Below are positions 2,975-20,401 of a stretch of DNA of 20,496 bases, piece by piece. Made by a program: the position numbers and the translations under genes. This DNA is from an uncultured Bacilli bacterium (GTDB lineage Bacteria; Bacillota_I; Bacilli_A; RF39; UBA660), in assembly GCA_944363805.1 (NCBI GenBank), contig CALVVH010000020.1:1-20496 (forward strand), written 5' to 3'. Positions within the stretch are counted from its first letter, which is position 1, and each line of letters begins with the position of its first letter. The notes under the pieces were generated by a model that was given only the letters and a program-made list of their open reading frames with translations, ran no database searches and was not told the origin of the DNA.

Positions 2975-4053
2975 CTTTGTTCAAATTTATAAGTATTGGT
3001 ATCATTTATTAAATCATATACAATACTTGCTTGTAATTCATATTTGTACTGCTTAGAATCTTTATTGACAATAGTGGGTATTTTCAAATCTTTTAACTTA
3101 TTTAAATATTGTTGACCATTACGATTAAATCCGAGTATCTTAATGTATTCTAATTCATTATTATCTTCTTTTTTTAAAGATACTAAAATATGGACAAACA
3201 TTCTATTTAATTTGTTGTAGGTATATCTTTTAGTTTTAATATTGTTTATAAATTCTTCCATATTTTTAGAACTATTGATAAAGCTTTTTAAACGATATTC
3301 AATTCCTTCATCAACATCTAAATATGTATTTAAAAAATCACAAGTATTTATTTTGTATTTTAATAATTTAAAGTAATTATCTTTGTTAATATTAATAATT
3401 TTATCTACCACATTATTAGGTACAAATCTAGTAATATCTTCTTTACTATTTAATTTATTTCGAATATTAGATGCACTAATTATGTTTTCATTACTAACTA
3501 TATCGTGATAACTGTTGGTCCTTTTAATTGTTGTAATTTCAATTGAATAATTGTTTTTTATTATGGCTTTAGCATAAGAAATACCTAAAAGATCGTTGGG
3601 TAAAAATTGAAAATCTTCTTCTAATGCTTTAGCTAGGGCAGTAGGGTAATTAAGTCCTTGTGCTAAATATTCTTTGACCTTTTCATCATAGCTACCACAT
3701 AATTCTTTTTTTGCTAGAGTTTTAATTTTTTTGACATCATTTGACTCACTTCCAAATATTAATCTGTTTACGTAGAAATTATTTAGTATTTTTAAAGAAA
3801 TACTAGCAAAAGTATCTGCAGATTGAGTCCCATGTACAAATGGTAATTCTAAAACAATATCAATATTATTTTCTAAAGCAATTTTAGTCTTATCTTCCTT
3901 TGTAAGTATCGACATTTCTCCTCGTTCTAAAAAATAACCATTTAAAACCAGAATTATTAAAGAATCTGGATACATTTCCTTTATTTTATTTAGATGATAT
4001 ATATGCCCATTATGTAAAGGGTTATACTCACAAATTATACCGATTACTTCCAT
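2950..4053 (-). CDS. tmcAL: tRNA(Met) cytidine acetate ligase
   Basis: A 367-residue member of the TmcAL (YlbM) family, which uses ATP and acetate to make N4-acetylcytidine at the wobble base of elongator tRNA-Met. The N-terminus carries the nucleotidyltransferase signature EYNPLHNGH (residues 9-17, HxGH motif). Family blocks GYFLERGEMSILTKEDKTKIAL, LPFVHGTQSADTFA, IKRTNSYHD and ISASNIRNKL follow in order. It is somewhat shorter than the Bacillus protein (about 415). The start has ribosome binding site agaggt. The upstream hotdog thioesterase gene ends only 8 bases before it, so the two are probably one transcript. Confidence 0.9.
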   Translation of the reverse strand: MEVIGIICEYNPLHNGHIYHLNKIKEMYPDSLIILVLNGYFLERGEMSILTKEDKTKIALENNIDIVLELPFVHGTQSADTFASISLKILNNFYVNRLIFGSESNDVKKIKTLAKKELCGSYDEKVKEYLAQGLNYPTALAKALEEDFQFLPNDLLGISYAKAIIKNNYSIEITTIKRTNSYHDIVSNENIISASNIRNKLNSKEDITRFVPNNVVDKIININKDNYFKLLKYKINTCDFLNTYLDVDEGIEYRLKSFINSSKNMEEFINNIKTKRYTYNKLNRMFVHILVSLKKEDNNELEYIKILGFNRNGQQYLNKLKDLKIPTIVNKDSKQYKYELQASIVYDLINDTNTYKFEQRNKPVIKD

Positions 4054-16999: not shown

Positions 17000-17674
17000 G
17001 TGCGAATCGATATTATGACTTTGTTTCCTAATTTAGTTCAAGGTTTCTTAACTGAATCCATTATTAAAAGAGCAATAGAAAAAAATATTGTTACTATCAA
17101 TGTTATCGATTTTCGTGAGTTTTCACCACTTTCTAATAAACAAGTTGATGACACCCCTTATGGGGGAGGTGCAGGCATGTTACTGCGCTGTGAACCGATA
17201 TTTGAATGTTTAGATGCTATTGCTAACAATAATGCTCATGTCATATTGTTATCTCCAGAAGGCCCAACTTTTAAAGAAAATAAGGCTATTGACTTAACAA
17301 AATATAAACATATCATCCTTATTTGTGGCCATTATGAAGGATTCGATGAACGAATAAAGACACGTGTCGATGAAATAATTAGCATCGGTGACTTCATCTT
17401 AACTGGTGGAGAAATACCCGCTTGTGCCATAACTGATGCTGTAGTAAGATTGCTCCCAGGAGTTATCAATTCCGAATCTTTAGCTAATGAATCATTTACA
17501 GATAATTTACTCGATTATCCGCAGTATACTAAACCTGCTGAATATCGGGGCTTAAAAGTACCTGATGTCCTAATAAGTGGTAATCATCAAAAAATCGCTG
17601 AATGGCGAAAAAATGAACAACTAAAAAAGACACAAAATCTACGGCCAGATTTAATGGGGGATGAAAATGAATAG
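17000..17674 (+). CDS. trmD: tRNA (guanine-37-N1)-methyltransferase
   Basis: 224 residues with a GTG start behind a strong ggaggtg site (16987-16993). It makes m1G37 in tRNAs with G36, which prevents frameshifting. The trefoil-knot motifs are clear: DTPYGGGAGM (51-60), ICGHYEGFDERI (108-119) and GDFILTGGE (130-138), with the flexible C-terminal domain ending ENEQLKKTQ-like residues. Slightly shorter than the usual 240-250 residues. It overlaps the next gene by 8 bases. Confidence 0.96.
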   Translation: MRIDIMTLFPNLVQGFLTESIIKRAIEKNIVTINVIDFREFSPLSNKQVDDTPYGGGAGMLLRCEPIFECLDAIANNNAHVILLSPEGPTFKENKAIDLTKYKHIILICGHYEGFDERIKTRVDEIISIGDFILTGGEIPACAITDAVVRLLPGVINSESLANESFTDNLLDYPQYTKPAEYRGLKVPDVLISGNHQKIAEWRKNEQLKKTQNLRPDLMGDENE

Positions 17675-18092
17675 TTATATTTTAAAAAATGACGATGAAG
17701 AAAAGAAAGTGCTACTTTATAAAGAACAAAATGGTTATTCATTTTCTCCTAAAAAAGGTTATAAAAAGGTCAAAAAGATAACAGTTTTAGATACAGACAT
17801 GGTAAGTAGTATCTTAGAAGATAAAGTAATAAAGGCTTATAATAGATTAATTAAAATCATCTATAGTCTTATTACAGCAGGTGATGATACAACCAGCGGT
17901 GATGTCCTAATGGCTTATACAGAACTTGATCGTATCAGAAATATCTTAGAATATAAATACAATCAGTTCCTAAAAAAAACATTTATTGAAAAATATTTAA
18001 AAAAATTATATATTTTAGAACTAGAACTAAAAAAAGTCCATGTTATGGAATTAGAAGATGAAATTGAAGAGGAAAGAGGGAAAAGTAGATAA
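17667..18092 (+). CDS. Unknown helical protein in the trmD unit
   Basis: About 141 residues, not recognised. A short N-terminal Lys-rich beta-like part (residues 1-40) precedes two long helices (about 45-125) and an acidic tail (ELEDEIEEERGKSR). No signal peptide or transmembrane segment. ATG 17667 is preferred over 17661 because the ggggg tract ends at 17660. It overlaps trmD and, by one base (TAATG), the next gene, so it is co-translated with both. Confidence 0.75.
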   Translation: MNSYILKNDDEEKKVLLYKEQNGYSFSPKKGYKKVKKITVLDTDMVSSILEDKVIKAYNRLIKIIYSLITAGDDTTSGDVLMAYTELDRIRNILEYKYNQFLKKTFIEKYLKKLYILELELKKVHVMELEDEIEEERGKSR

Positions 18093-18391
18093 TGGCAAAA
18101 TTAGATAAGAAAAAGACAATCTTAATGGGAGTAATATTAATATTAGCGGTTGTGGCAATATTTGTTTATTTAAACTTTTTTAGAACATTTACTGTAACAT
18201 TCAATGTCCGTATAGGAAATGGTATTCCTGTTCAAGAAGTGCAAATTGGACATACAGCAACCGAACCTGCTGAACCTACTGCTGAGGGTTATGCTTTCTT
18301 AGGGTGGTATTTAGATGGCAAAGAATATGATTTTACAACTCCCGTTGAAGGAAATATAACTCTTACTGCTGAATGGGAAGAACAAGAATAG
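18092..18391 (+). CDS. Single-pass membrane protein with one InlB-type B-repeat
   Basis: 99 residues. N-terminal basic segment, one transmembrane helix (about 9-28), then a single Listeria-Bacteroides/InlB B-repeat (Flg_new type): TVTFNVRIGNG...TAEGYAFLGWYLDG..YDFTTPV..NITLTAEWE. Such repeats usually occur in tandem in adhesins; here there is one copy on a membrane stub, predicted outside. It is the last gene of the mscL-to-18391 series and is followed by a terminator. Role unknown. Confidence 0.82.
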   Translation: MAKLDKKKTILMGVILILAVVAIFVYLNFFRTFTVTFNVRIGNGIPVQEVQIGHTATEPAEPTAEGYAFLGWYLDGKEYDFTTPVEGNITLTAEWEEQE

Positions 18392-18595: not shown

Positions 18596-20401
18596 ATGGA
18601 AAAGAAGAACAAAACTCTTGTGCTATCAATTATAGCGATAGCAACTCTTTTAATCGTGGTAGTAGGAGCAACATATGCATATTTTATGGCTCAAGGAGGA
18701 GCTAGTGCTAATACAAATTTAGATGTCCAAACAAATACGACAGATAATTTGTCATTTAGTGTAGGGGATGCAATAAGCATAACAGCAACCCAAGATAATT
18801 TTGCTCAAGGATTGGGTAACCAAGCAGGCAGTACCACAGCTAGTGCCACACTTACAGCAAATAATGCAACGAATACTGCCACCAGAAATTATTATTTGTA
18901 TTTGAATATTACAAGTAATGATTTTGAATATACGGTAGATAACGATACTCCAGAATTGATACTTACTGTAACAGATCCAGATGGAAGTCCAGTAGAAAAC
19001 ATTTCAGGACTAAAATATGTAACAGTAGGAGAAGCTGATAACCAAGTAACAGGATTTGATATAACAACAGCAAGTGAATTAATAACATTAGCAAGTAATT
19101 ATGAAATTACAGCTACAAGTGATCCGAAAGTCCAAGAATGGAATATCACTGTAACATTTGTTAATCTAAATAGTGACCAAGTAGGCAATGCGGGTAAGAC
19201 ATTTGAAGCGACAGTCATAATCCAAGAAGAACCACTAACTTCATCACAAAATTTAGCAAGTTATATAACAGAAACATTATATACAACGGATGGCGTAAAC
19301 GGATTATACTTACATGATGGACAAGGGGATTACGTGAATTCTGACCAAGAAGCTGGAGATAACTCATATAGATTTAGTGGTGGAGATTACAAAGTAACAG
19401 AAACAGCTATACAAGCAGGATTAACGAGAGTTTATACAGCAGCTGCTACTGAAAGCGATGGAGTAATCAATTTTTATTGTAATGGGGCAAAACAATCTGT
19501 TGGTTATGATTGTAACGCTAGTGAAGAACATTATTATACAACAGTATATAGTGAAACAGCTCATTATAATACATTAGAGGAAGCGTTAAACCAAGCAGTA
19601 ACTGATGGATATTTAACAAGTGATAATATCAAAAACTTTGTCTGCTTTGGCCCAGAAGCAAGTGAAGGCTCATGTTCAGAAGATAATCTATATCGAATCA
19701 TCGGAGTATTTGATGGCCAAGTAAAATTAATCAAATATGATTATGCAAAGCCAACAATATTAGGAGAAGATGGTGATTATTATCAAACACAAACAACCAG
19801 TTTCTTAAGCGGAAAATTATATGATGCAGGTACAAGATATTTGTATTATTGGAATGGTCCAACGAGTAGTGGAGGAACAGAAACAAATACATGGAGTGCA
19901 AGTAGACTTAATACAGTAAATCTAAATACAAATTATTGGAATTATCTAACCGCTGACTGGCAAGGTAAGATAGCGAATACAACATGGAAAGTTGGAGGAA
20001 ATACATGGGAAAGTATAGGAACCCAAAGTGTTAAAACGGCATATACAAACGAAATAGTAAGCCCAGCCGAAGGAACAACATACCAAGATGAAATAGGGTT
20101 AATGTATGTGTCAGATTATATGTATGCAGTAGATCCAAGTGGTTGGACAACTGTTGGTAGTGGAACAACAGACTATCGTGCTATAAAGGGAGATAACTGG
20201 ATGTATATGGGAGAAGTAGATTGGACAATTTCCCGTCGTTTGGTCTATGCGTATGATGCGTTCTGCGTGGGCGGCGGAGGAAGCGTCACTTACACTGCAG
20301 TGAGCCTCCCACGTGGTGTGCGCCCGTCCTTCTATCTGAACTCTAATGTAGAATTTGAGGGGGGAAGTGGCTTGTCCTCTGACCCTTTTGTAATAATTTG
20401 A
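18596..20401 (+). CDS. Large secreted/anchored surface protein with probable DGR variable region (paralogue B)
   Basis: A 601-residue paralogue of the 1148-2944 protein with the same order: hydrophobic segment 8-30 ending ATYAYF, Asn/Thr-rich beta region, Cys-containing middle (FYCNGAK, FVCFGPE), and C-type-lectin-like C-terminus (DEIGLMYVSDYMYA, GVRPSFYL, SSDPFVII). From WTIS (residue 543) onward the codons change sharply: gcg, ggc, gtg, cgc and ccg appear, and residues 547-573 look randomised around fixed A-F, V and G-x-V positions. This is the layout of a DGR target protein, where the C-terminal lectin fold displays diversified residues. Two promoters are visible upstream. It stops with TGA. 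Binding partner unknown. Confidence 0.78.
   Translation: MEKKNKTLVLSIIAIATLLIVVVGATYAYFMAQGGASANTNLDVQTNTTDNLSFSVGDAISITATQDNFAQGLGNQAGSTTASATLTANNATNTATRNYYLYLNITSNDFEYTVDNDTPELILTVTDPDGSPVENISGLKYVTVGEADNQVTGFDITTASELITLASNYEITATSDPKVQEWNITVTFVNLNSDQVGNAGKTFEATVIIQEEPLTSSQNLASYITETLYTTDGVNGLYLHDGQGDYVNSDQEAGDNSYRFSGGDYKVTETAIQAGLTRVYTAAATESDGVINFYCNGAKQSVGYDCNASEEHYYTTVYSETAHYNTLEEALNQAVTDGYLTSDNIKNFVCFGPEASEGSCSEDNLYRIIGVFDGQVKLIKYDYAKPTILGEDGDYYQTQTTSFLSGKLYDAGTRYLYYWNGPTSSGGTETNTWSASRLNTVNLNTNYWNYLTADWQGKIANTTWKVGGNTWESIGTQSVKTAYTNEIVSPAEGTTYQDEIGLMYVSDYMYAVDPSGWTTVGSGTTDYRAIKGDNWMYMGEVDWTISRRLVYAYDAFCVGGGGSVTYTAVSLPRGVRPSFYLNSNVEFEGGSGLSSDPFVII
20231..20401 (+). other. Probable DGR variable region (VR)
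   Basis: Bases 20234-20338 contain about 60% G+C and only 13 adenines in 105 by hand count, in a genome stretch that is otherwise AT- and A-rich. Adenine loss is what DGR mutagenesis does: every template A can become any base. Residues R-R-L-V-Y-A-Y-D then fixed A-F, C, V, G-G-G-G-S, V, T-Y-T fit a template rich in AAC/AAT codons. The conserved GVRPSFYL block (20270s-20338 region end) would correspond to the invariant 3' part near the initiation site. The exact 5' and 3' limits need the template repeat, which is not in the window. Confidence 0.62.

Follow-up and report, generated by a model that had tools for sequence, protein, structure and literature searches.

The 20,496-nt stretch of DNA analysed here (the window) contains one place where adenine is depleted to an unusual degree, and this place lies near the end of a gene for a 601-aa protein. 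What could have written such a tract? An earlier note on this DNA had proposed that the end of the gene is the target of a diversity-generating retroelement (DGR), a copying system that scrambles chosen codons. The proposal is supported here: the tract is homologous base for base to the template of relatives, with the non-A bases kept and the A's replaced, and a template repeat (TR), a DGR-type reverse transcriptase (RT) and accessory genes are present in the genus to which the relative G001 belongs. The LepA of G001 and that of the window are 93% identical. It is very probable, on the grounds of sequence comparison, that positions 20228-20326 are the variable region (VR) of a DGR target gene, which a DGR located elsewhere in the same genome would rewrite. 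The features to which the text refers are the following.

1148-2944, + strand: paralog of the target gene, 66% identity
18596-20401, + strand: target gene, 601 aa (from the ORF listing, profile matches and homologue search)
20228-20326, + strand: predicted VR, 33 codons (ISRRLVYAYDAFCVGGGGSVTYTAVSLPRGVRP), gapless against the type I template repeat of the relative G303 (ISRRSDNTNNAFNVNNTGNVNNNNVNNNNGVRP)
20315-20326, + strand: GC-rich 3′ border of the VR (GGTGTGCGCCCG), at which the TR/VR homology in G303 ends
20327-20401, + strand: conserved tail SFYLNSNV...SDPFVII and stop, 3′ of the VR

The Target Gene and Its Low-Adenine Tract

The protein encoded by 18596-20401 has a hydrophobic N-terminal segment (as read from its sequence), through which it is probably anchored or secreted as a cell-surface protein. 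Its N-terminal domain is common to many paralogs, and comparison of this domain by sequence with solved structures gave nothing convincing (best E 0.63). The C-terminal domain, which carries the VR, is weakly similar to DUF6273: the profile matches the window protein with E 0.021 and 15 of 50 homologues with a best E of 5.5e-5, while sequence profiles gave no usable solved structure for this domain. A lectin-type fold and a binding role of the hypervariable tip are putative. Pfam Wzz matches in the protein were under the cut-off and were judged to be due to chance. Directly 5′ of the gene, positions 18092-18391 encode a 99-aa protein with a hydrophobic start, whose repeat resembles, by eye, what we take to be listeria-type surface repeats.

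The earlier note had counted 13 A in the 105 bases of 20234-20338, and this count is exact. Among all 105-base stretches of the window the minimum on the + strand is 12 A, at 20229, against a mean of 37.8, and stretches with at most 13 A start only at 20228-20234; the tract 20228-20326 is the most adenine-poor stretch of the whole window, and the A content of 18596-20221 is 39.1%. The gene end had also been called GC-rich, which holds for 20228-20326 with a GC content of 0.61. The borders of the tract could be drawn more sharply, from 20228 (ATTTCCCG) to 20326 (GTGCGCCCG), since the last 75 bases of the gene, stop codon included, are an ordinary conserved tail outside the VR. The sequence GTGCGCCCG also closes the homology of the G303 TR with most G303 VRs and is identical in the window; by analogy with known DGRs, 20315-20326 is a probable initiation-of-mutagenic-homing (IMH) site. 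Finally, the skeleton of fixed A-F, V, G-x-V and GVRP positions between variable residues, pointed out before, turns out to be the non-Asn skeleton of the relatives' template repeats.

Fit of the Tract to Templates of Relatives

The tract lies near the 3′ end of a coding gene and is homologous to a template repeat. Aligned with the G303 TR over 99 bases without a gap, it differs at 27 of 37 template A's and at 15 of 62 other bases (G 1/20, T 3/16, C 11/26); 13 of these 15 non-A changes fall on third codon positions, and one, TCG to TTG, alters the amino acid. None of the 15 Asn codons in the G303 TR is left unchanged in the tract, yet 13 of the 15 still read NNY, compared with an NNY share of 46% in the rest of the gene. 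The TR of G001/G004 fits almost as well (27/37 A and 16/62 non-A changed), these two fits being the best among the templates compared, whereas in ungapped alignments with three other templates the fit is poorer, the non-A changes being 34/65, 34/65 and 29/70.

Since the tract has so few A's, differences are to be expected at the A's of any A-rich partner, so that the Fisher value of 2.2e-6 (A vs. non-A, tract against G303 TR) is not an independent proof and the weight rests on the non-A bases that are kept. When the G303 TR was scanned with masked A's along both strands of the window, the best place was 20228 with 15 mismatches, followed by 32 in an overlapping register and 34 at the next independent place (mean 49.4, s.d. 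3.3). Shuffling the codons of the tract 5000 times gave on average 42.7 non-A mismatches to the template and never fewer than 28, against 15 for the real tract, while on average 32 of the 37 template A's were changed in the shuffles, compared with 27 in the real tract. In the rest of the gene, a comparison with the G001 homologue reveals no bias toward A (26% of A and 29% of non-A changed). Differences at A make up 27 of 42 (64%) between the tract and the G303 TR, which is a relative's template from which the window's own may differ; this share is under the value of at least 75% that overwhelmingly applies to TR-VR pairs in a DGR survey (PMC8144416).

The window also holds a natural comparison, the paralog at 1148-2944. 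Its stretch matching the VR, 2768-2863, is A+T-rich (27 A of 96, GC 0.35), and in frame with the template it is changed at 18 of 36 A's and 32 of 60 other bases, that is without A bias; its candidacy as a second VR was rejected on these counts. Because the paralog fits the template so poorly at non-A bases, family homology alone does not give the fit of the tract. In a direct comparison of the tract with the paralog's stretch, 19 of 27 A's and 34 of 69 non-A bases are changed, so A changes more there too. The paralog is a family member without recognisable VR within the same 20 kb.

DGR Machinery in the Genus

The genus of G001 is represented by 30 genomes of 0.9-1.7 Mb, all of them metagenome-assembled genomes (MAGs) of unstated completeness and contamination. 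Scanning genome contigs led to 28 loci in MAGs of uncultured Bacilli, and RVT_1 matches were present in 11 of the 11 genomes with those loci; some have the QG...SP motif of other RTs, and the DGR-type subset has IGNMTSQ, IGNQSSQ or IGNVSSQ together with YMDD. At E ≤ 1e-20 the DGR RT was found in 23 of the 30 genus genomes, with an open frame of at least 354 aa in 20 and as pieces only in three, and was not found at this threshold in the remaining seven; several RT copies in relatives contain stop codons. In two genomes (G005:C1 and G008:C3) there are stop-interrupted pieces of a DGR-like RT with another RT (443 aa, QGSILSP) between them, as if a second retroelement had inserted.

Near DGR-type RTs there are templates of two types, ISRNSDNTNNAFNVNNTGYVNNNNVNNTNAVRP with its kin (type I) and TPNSSNSNNVFNVNNNGNLNNNNANNG (type II). 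The complete cassette of G303 (locus L148) comprises, in this order, a local target, the TR (1603-1701), a protein of about 126 aa matching MutS_I (25.4 bits, over the cut-off of 20.6), an Avd-like protein, an RT of 364 aa and a small ORF. By sequence, the solved structure nearest to this RT is 8ub7 ("Reverse transcriptase", E 1e-21), which we take to be the BPP-1 complex; its best NCBIfam model is a group II maturase, under the cut-off. The relatives' cassettes thus include an Avd-like accessory protein, with matches to NF033474 DivGenRetAVD (E 7e-7 and 7.9e-12, both under the curated cut-off) and to bAvd (3.7e-4 and 2e-7, under the cut-off). The small protein between TR and RT in type I cassettes, at L148:1866-2240 with its MutS domain I match, has a copy at L047:602-982 that looks alike by eye.

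How widespread are the templates? The A-masked type I pattern, with up to 3 mismatches allowed, matched in 17 of the 30 genus genomes and the type II pattern in 14 of 30, with reversed controls at 0/30 for type I and controls at 0/30 for type II. G303 has 18 type I matches (1 TR and 17 others) and the other 16 genomes have 1-10 each. The pattern scan of viral contigs revealed no close relatives of the RT or the target. On contig C1 of G001, two different A-rich type I template-like sequences occur at 3291 and 83087, with a VR-like match 418 and 387 bases away, respectively; G001 possibly has two type I DGRs in one genome.

One Template and Many Variable Regions in G303

G303, the richest of the 30 genomes, was chosen for its number of pattern matches. 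Over 72 ungapped bases, its 17 VRs differ from the TR at 261 of 476 A's (55%), 17 of 272 C's, 9 of 238 G's and 11 of 238 T's; the differences within G303 are thus concentrated at A (261 of 298, 88%). Sixteen of these 17 pattern-matched VRs are located on contigs other than that of the cassette.

A wider count started from 35 domain matches, of which five without a locus were left out; four of the 30 loci had no frame, and two more rows were omitted, L176, which gave the VR of L171 again, and L180, read in a wrong frame (its real VR is that of L156). Among the 24 distinct VRs, 14 show 0-4/62 non-A and 14-24/37 A changes in relation to one TR, with 0-6 codon gaps, and some of them combine 0/62 non-A changes with 14 or 24 changes at A; of the others, four have 10-13 and six have 16-23 non-A changes. 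Whole-codon gaps were allowed in this alignment, which favours changes at A, and a control was run for this reason: 150 random segments aligned in the same way had a mean non-A mismatch fraction of 0.61 and a minimum of 0.40. In three VRs (L184, L172 and L177) nearly all non-A bases fit and there are 4-6 whole-codon gaps in Asn runs, as if a run of AAC codons slips during copying.

The C-terminal domain of the target is found in all 30 genus genomes, with 10-41 matches per genome and 717 in total, some of them fragments. The genome with most matches (G312, 41) gave no DGR RT at E ≤ 1e-20 and neither of the A-masked patterns; they may be lost, missing from the MAG, or replaced by a different template. 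Whether DGRs in this genus act as a genome-wide means of surface diversification, with one template for many targets and the window gene as a member, is in our estimate an evenly balanced question; in G303 one template would rewrite the tips of about 14-17 dispersed genes among the 35 matches, a number to be read knowing that the MAG may mix strains, and in other members of the genus type II (TPNSSNSNNVF...), with a template of its own, would serve another subset of the family.

Hypervariable Tips Among Homologous Proteins

Of 7999 candidates scored in a protein search, 7092 were homologues, and 120 of these were listed. From the 79 listed as P0042-P0120, 55 sequences were chosen by two fixed strings flanking the tip, which are constant by selection. 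Over the last 95 columns of this set, variation (entropy 0.84-3.28) is confined to 18 columns of the tip; outside the tip, entropy does not exceed 0.23 in the columns that the two strings leave free. By eye, 15 of the 18 correspond to Asn codons of the G303 template, and the remaining three to an Arg codon (Asn in the G001/G004 template), an Asp codon and a Thr codon. With the exception of 0.3% Lys, these columns contain residues to which changes of AAC/AAT can lead (Y, N, D, S, G, R, F, I, L, H and others).

One relative contributes 30 proteins of 598 aa with a pairwise difference of 0.8% upstream and 51% in the 28-residue tip, as well as 20 proteins of 590 aa with 3.1% upstream versus 53% in the tip; the upstream values come from the remainder of each protein, on which the choice by flanking strings puts no constraint. 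The pairs identical upstream (127 and 80, respectively) have tips that differ by at least 11% and at least 39%. As far as protein sequences can tell, this variation is a DGR-like signature, belonging to a relative and not to the window's species. For the lineage of the window, the comparison covered those 16 of 41 close homologues that agree in tip length and motif. Here the 15 Asn columns have a pairwise identity of 10%, the other VR columns one of 58% and the 20 residues upstream one of 68%. The window protein's own cluster consists of one contig only among the matches listed.

Remote Target, Local Cassette or Relic

Template homology, A-specific VR divergence together with the machinery in relatives, and hypervariation in the proteins of one relative were demonstrated above. 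Where would the machinery that acts on the window gene be located? In the 20,496-nt window no RT, TR or accessory genes were found, and a lone Avd match (E 0.20) is at chance level. In six cassettes (G303, G004, G001, G011, G006 and G003) the start of the TR lies 382-435 bases past that of the VR beside it; this geometry puts a local TR at about 20610-20665, off the contig, so the absence from the window says nothing and a local cassette is still compatible with the data. Given an active DGR, we nevertheless lean toward 18596-20401 being a remote target whose RT and TR lie at another place in the chromosome, because of the pattern in G303, where nearly all VRs lie away from the cassette. The target gene also comes after housekeeping-like ORFs, among them a trmD-like one at 17000-17674. 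The 98 bases past the last sense codon match nothing convincing in the relatives' loci (best 16 bases, E 0.014), which says little about local versus remote.

The tract could also have been written by a DGR whose RT or template has since been lost, or the gene may no longer be rewritable, and its sequence would then be frozen. The seven genus genomes without an RT at the threshold, all of which keep the target domain, the stop codons in several RT copies and the other paralog in the window, with no recognisable VR, speak for such a relic, and strains of Treponema denticola without RT keep targets that are read as leftovers (PMC4891356). Yet the relatives are MAGs of unstated completeness, which makes a missing RT weak evidence, and the low-A, GC-rich composition of the tract has not drifted to the 39% A of its gene, its reading frame is intact and its borders match those of the G303 VRs; we regard a relic as unlikely. 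A GC-rich, fast-evolving ligand-binding tip with no DGR history, shaped by diversifying selection, gene conversion or recent transfer, is most improbable: rapid change is possible in ligand-binding tips, gene conversion is conceivable in a family of this size and A-poverty alone yields many mismatches at template A's, but none of this predicts a gapless fit, with non-A bases kept, to a template outside the target gene, the NNY pattern at Asn positions, the identical 3′ border, or G303 VRs changed exclusively at A.

Proposed Mechanism

For a VR rewritten by an active DGR, we infer that the window's own genome has the same, active machinery as its relatives. The DGR in this genome would transcribe a template repeat rich in AAC/AAT codons, and the RT with Avd, probably joined by the MutS-domain-like accessory protein, would copy it with errors at template adenines. 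The cDNA would then take the place of the VR, from one fixed border (ATTTCCCG) to the other (GTGCGCCCG). In this way the 15 asparagine-coded positions and a few other A-containing codons would be rewritten, and the skeleton would stay. The product would probably be a surface protein with a hypervariable binding tip. As one template can serve a dispersed gene family in the genus, a cell may show many independently diversified tips.

Known Systems and Significance

The system resembles the DGR of the Bordetella phage BPP-1, with its VR in mtd, in its RT, Avd and TR, in the 3′-terminal position of the VR within the target and in adenine-directed change. The BPP-1 DGR has been reconstituted by expression in a laboratory strain of E. 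coli (PMC12875486). The system described here differs from BPP-1 in lying among housekeeping-like genes on its contigs and not in a phage, in the extra MutS-domain-like gene and in the many targets per template. Another DGR is that of Treponema denticola, whose targets we presume to be the TvpA family. As described in PMC4891356, it likewise has one TR and RT with dispersed targets, predicted to be lipoproteins or secreted, and 2-7 targets per isolate, whereas here a MAG of about 1 Mb, from an uncultured Bacilli genus, has 14 VRs that strongly match a single template. Remote variable proteins of cyanobacteria are also encoded by dispersed targets without adjacent RT; over a set of cyanobacterial genomes, 76 of 121 diversified genes are remote and 45 belong to a DGR (PMC7517822). 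There the proteins are mostly predicted to be cytosolic and are linked by the authors to signalling, in contrast to the hydrophobic N-terminal segment found here. Thiohalocapsa PB-PSB1 likewise has many targets per genome, 15 over nine loci, some of them explored as diversified in trans (PMC10907252), the difference being that the 14-17 VRs of the G303 MAG all go with a single template. The 14 VRs per template of G303 exceed the T. denticola count and rival that of Thiohalocapsa, although the MAG may mix strains and record status is not claimed; for cellular DGRs, PMC10907252 and PMC4891356 give 2-15 targets per genome.

A large metagenome survey would, as its authors state, miss targets away from the RT (PMC8144416), and RT-distant targets are the very arrangement seen here. 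Masking the adenines in a relative's template recognises VR-like tips on contigs that have no RT. Among the matches listed from the open-licence literature, no paper presents itself, by title or start of abstract, as a study of DGRs in this Bacilli group. The DGR target identified here by comparison belongs to a lineage in which it would be worth studying separately how many targets one template has. If one template drives more than 12 surface genes in a tiny genome, DGRs can be antigenic or receptor repertoire systems, and the sharing of one cDNA pool among many loci becomes testable by sequencing. Should the genome-wide system prove true, these bacteria would wear a coat that is combinatorial in the manner of the var/vsg-type families of parasites but rewritten by reverse transcription.
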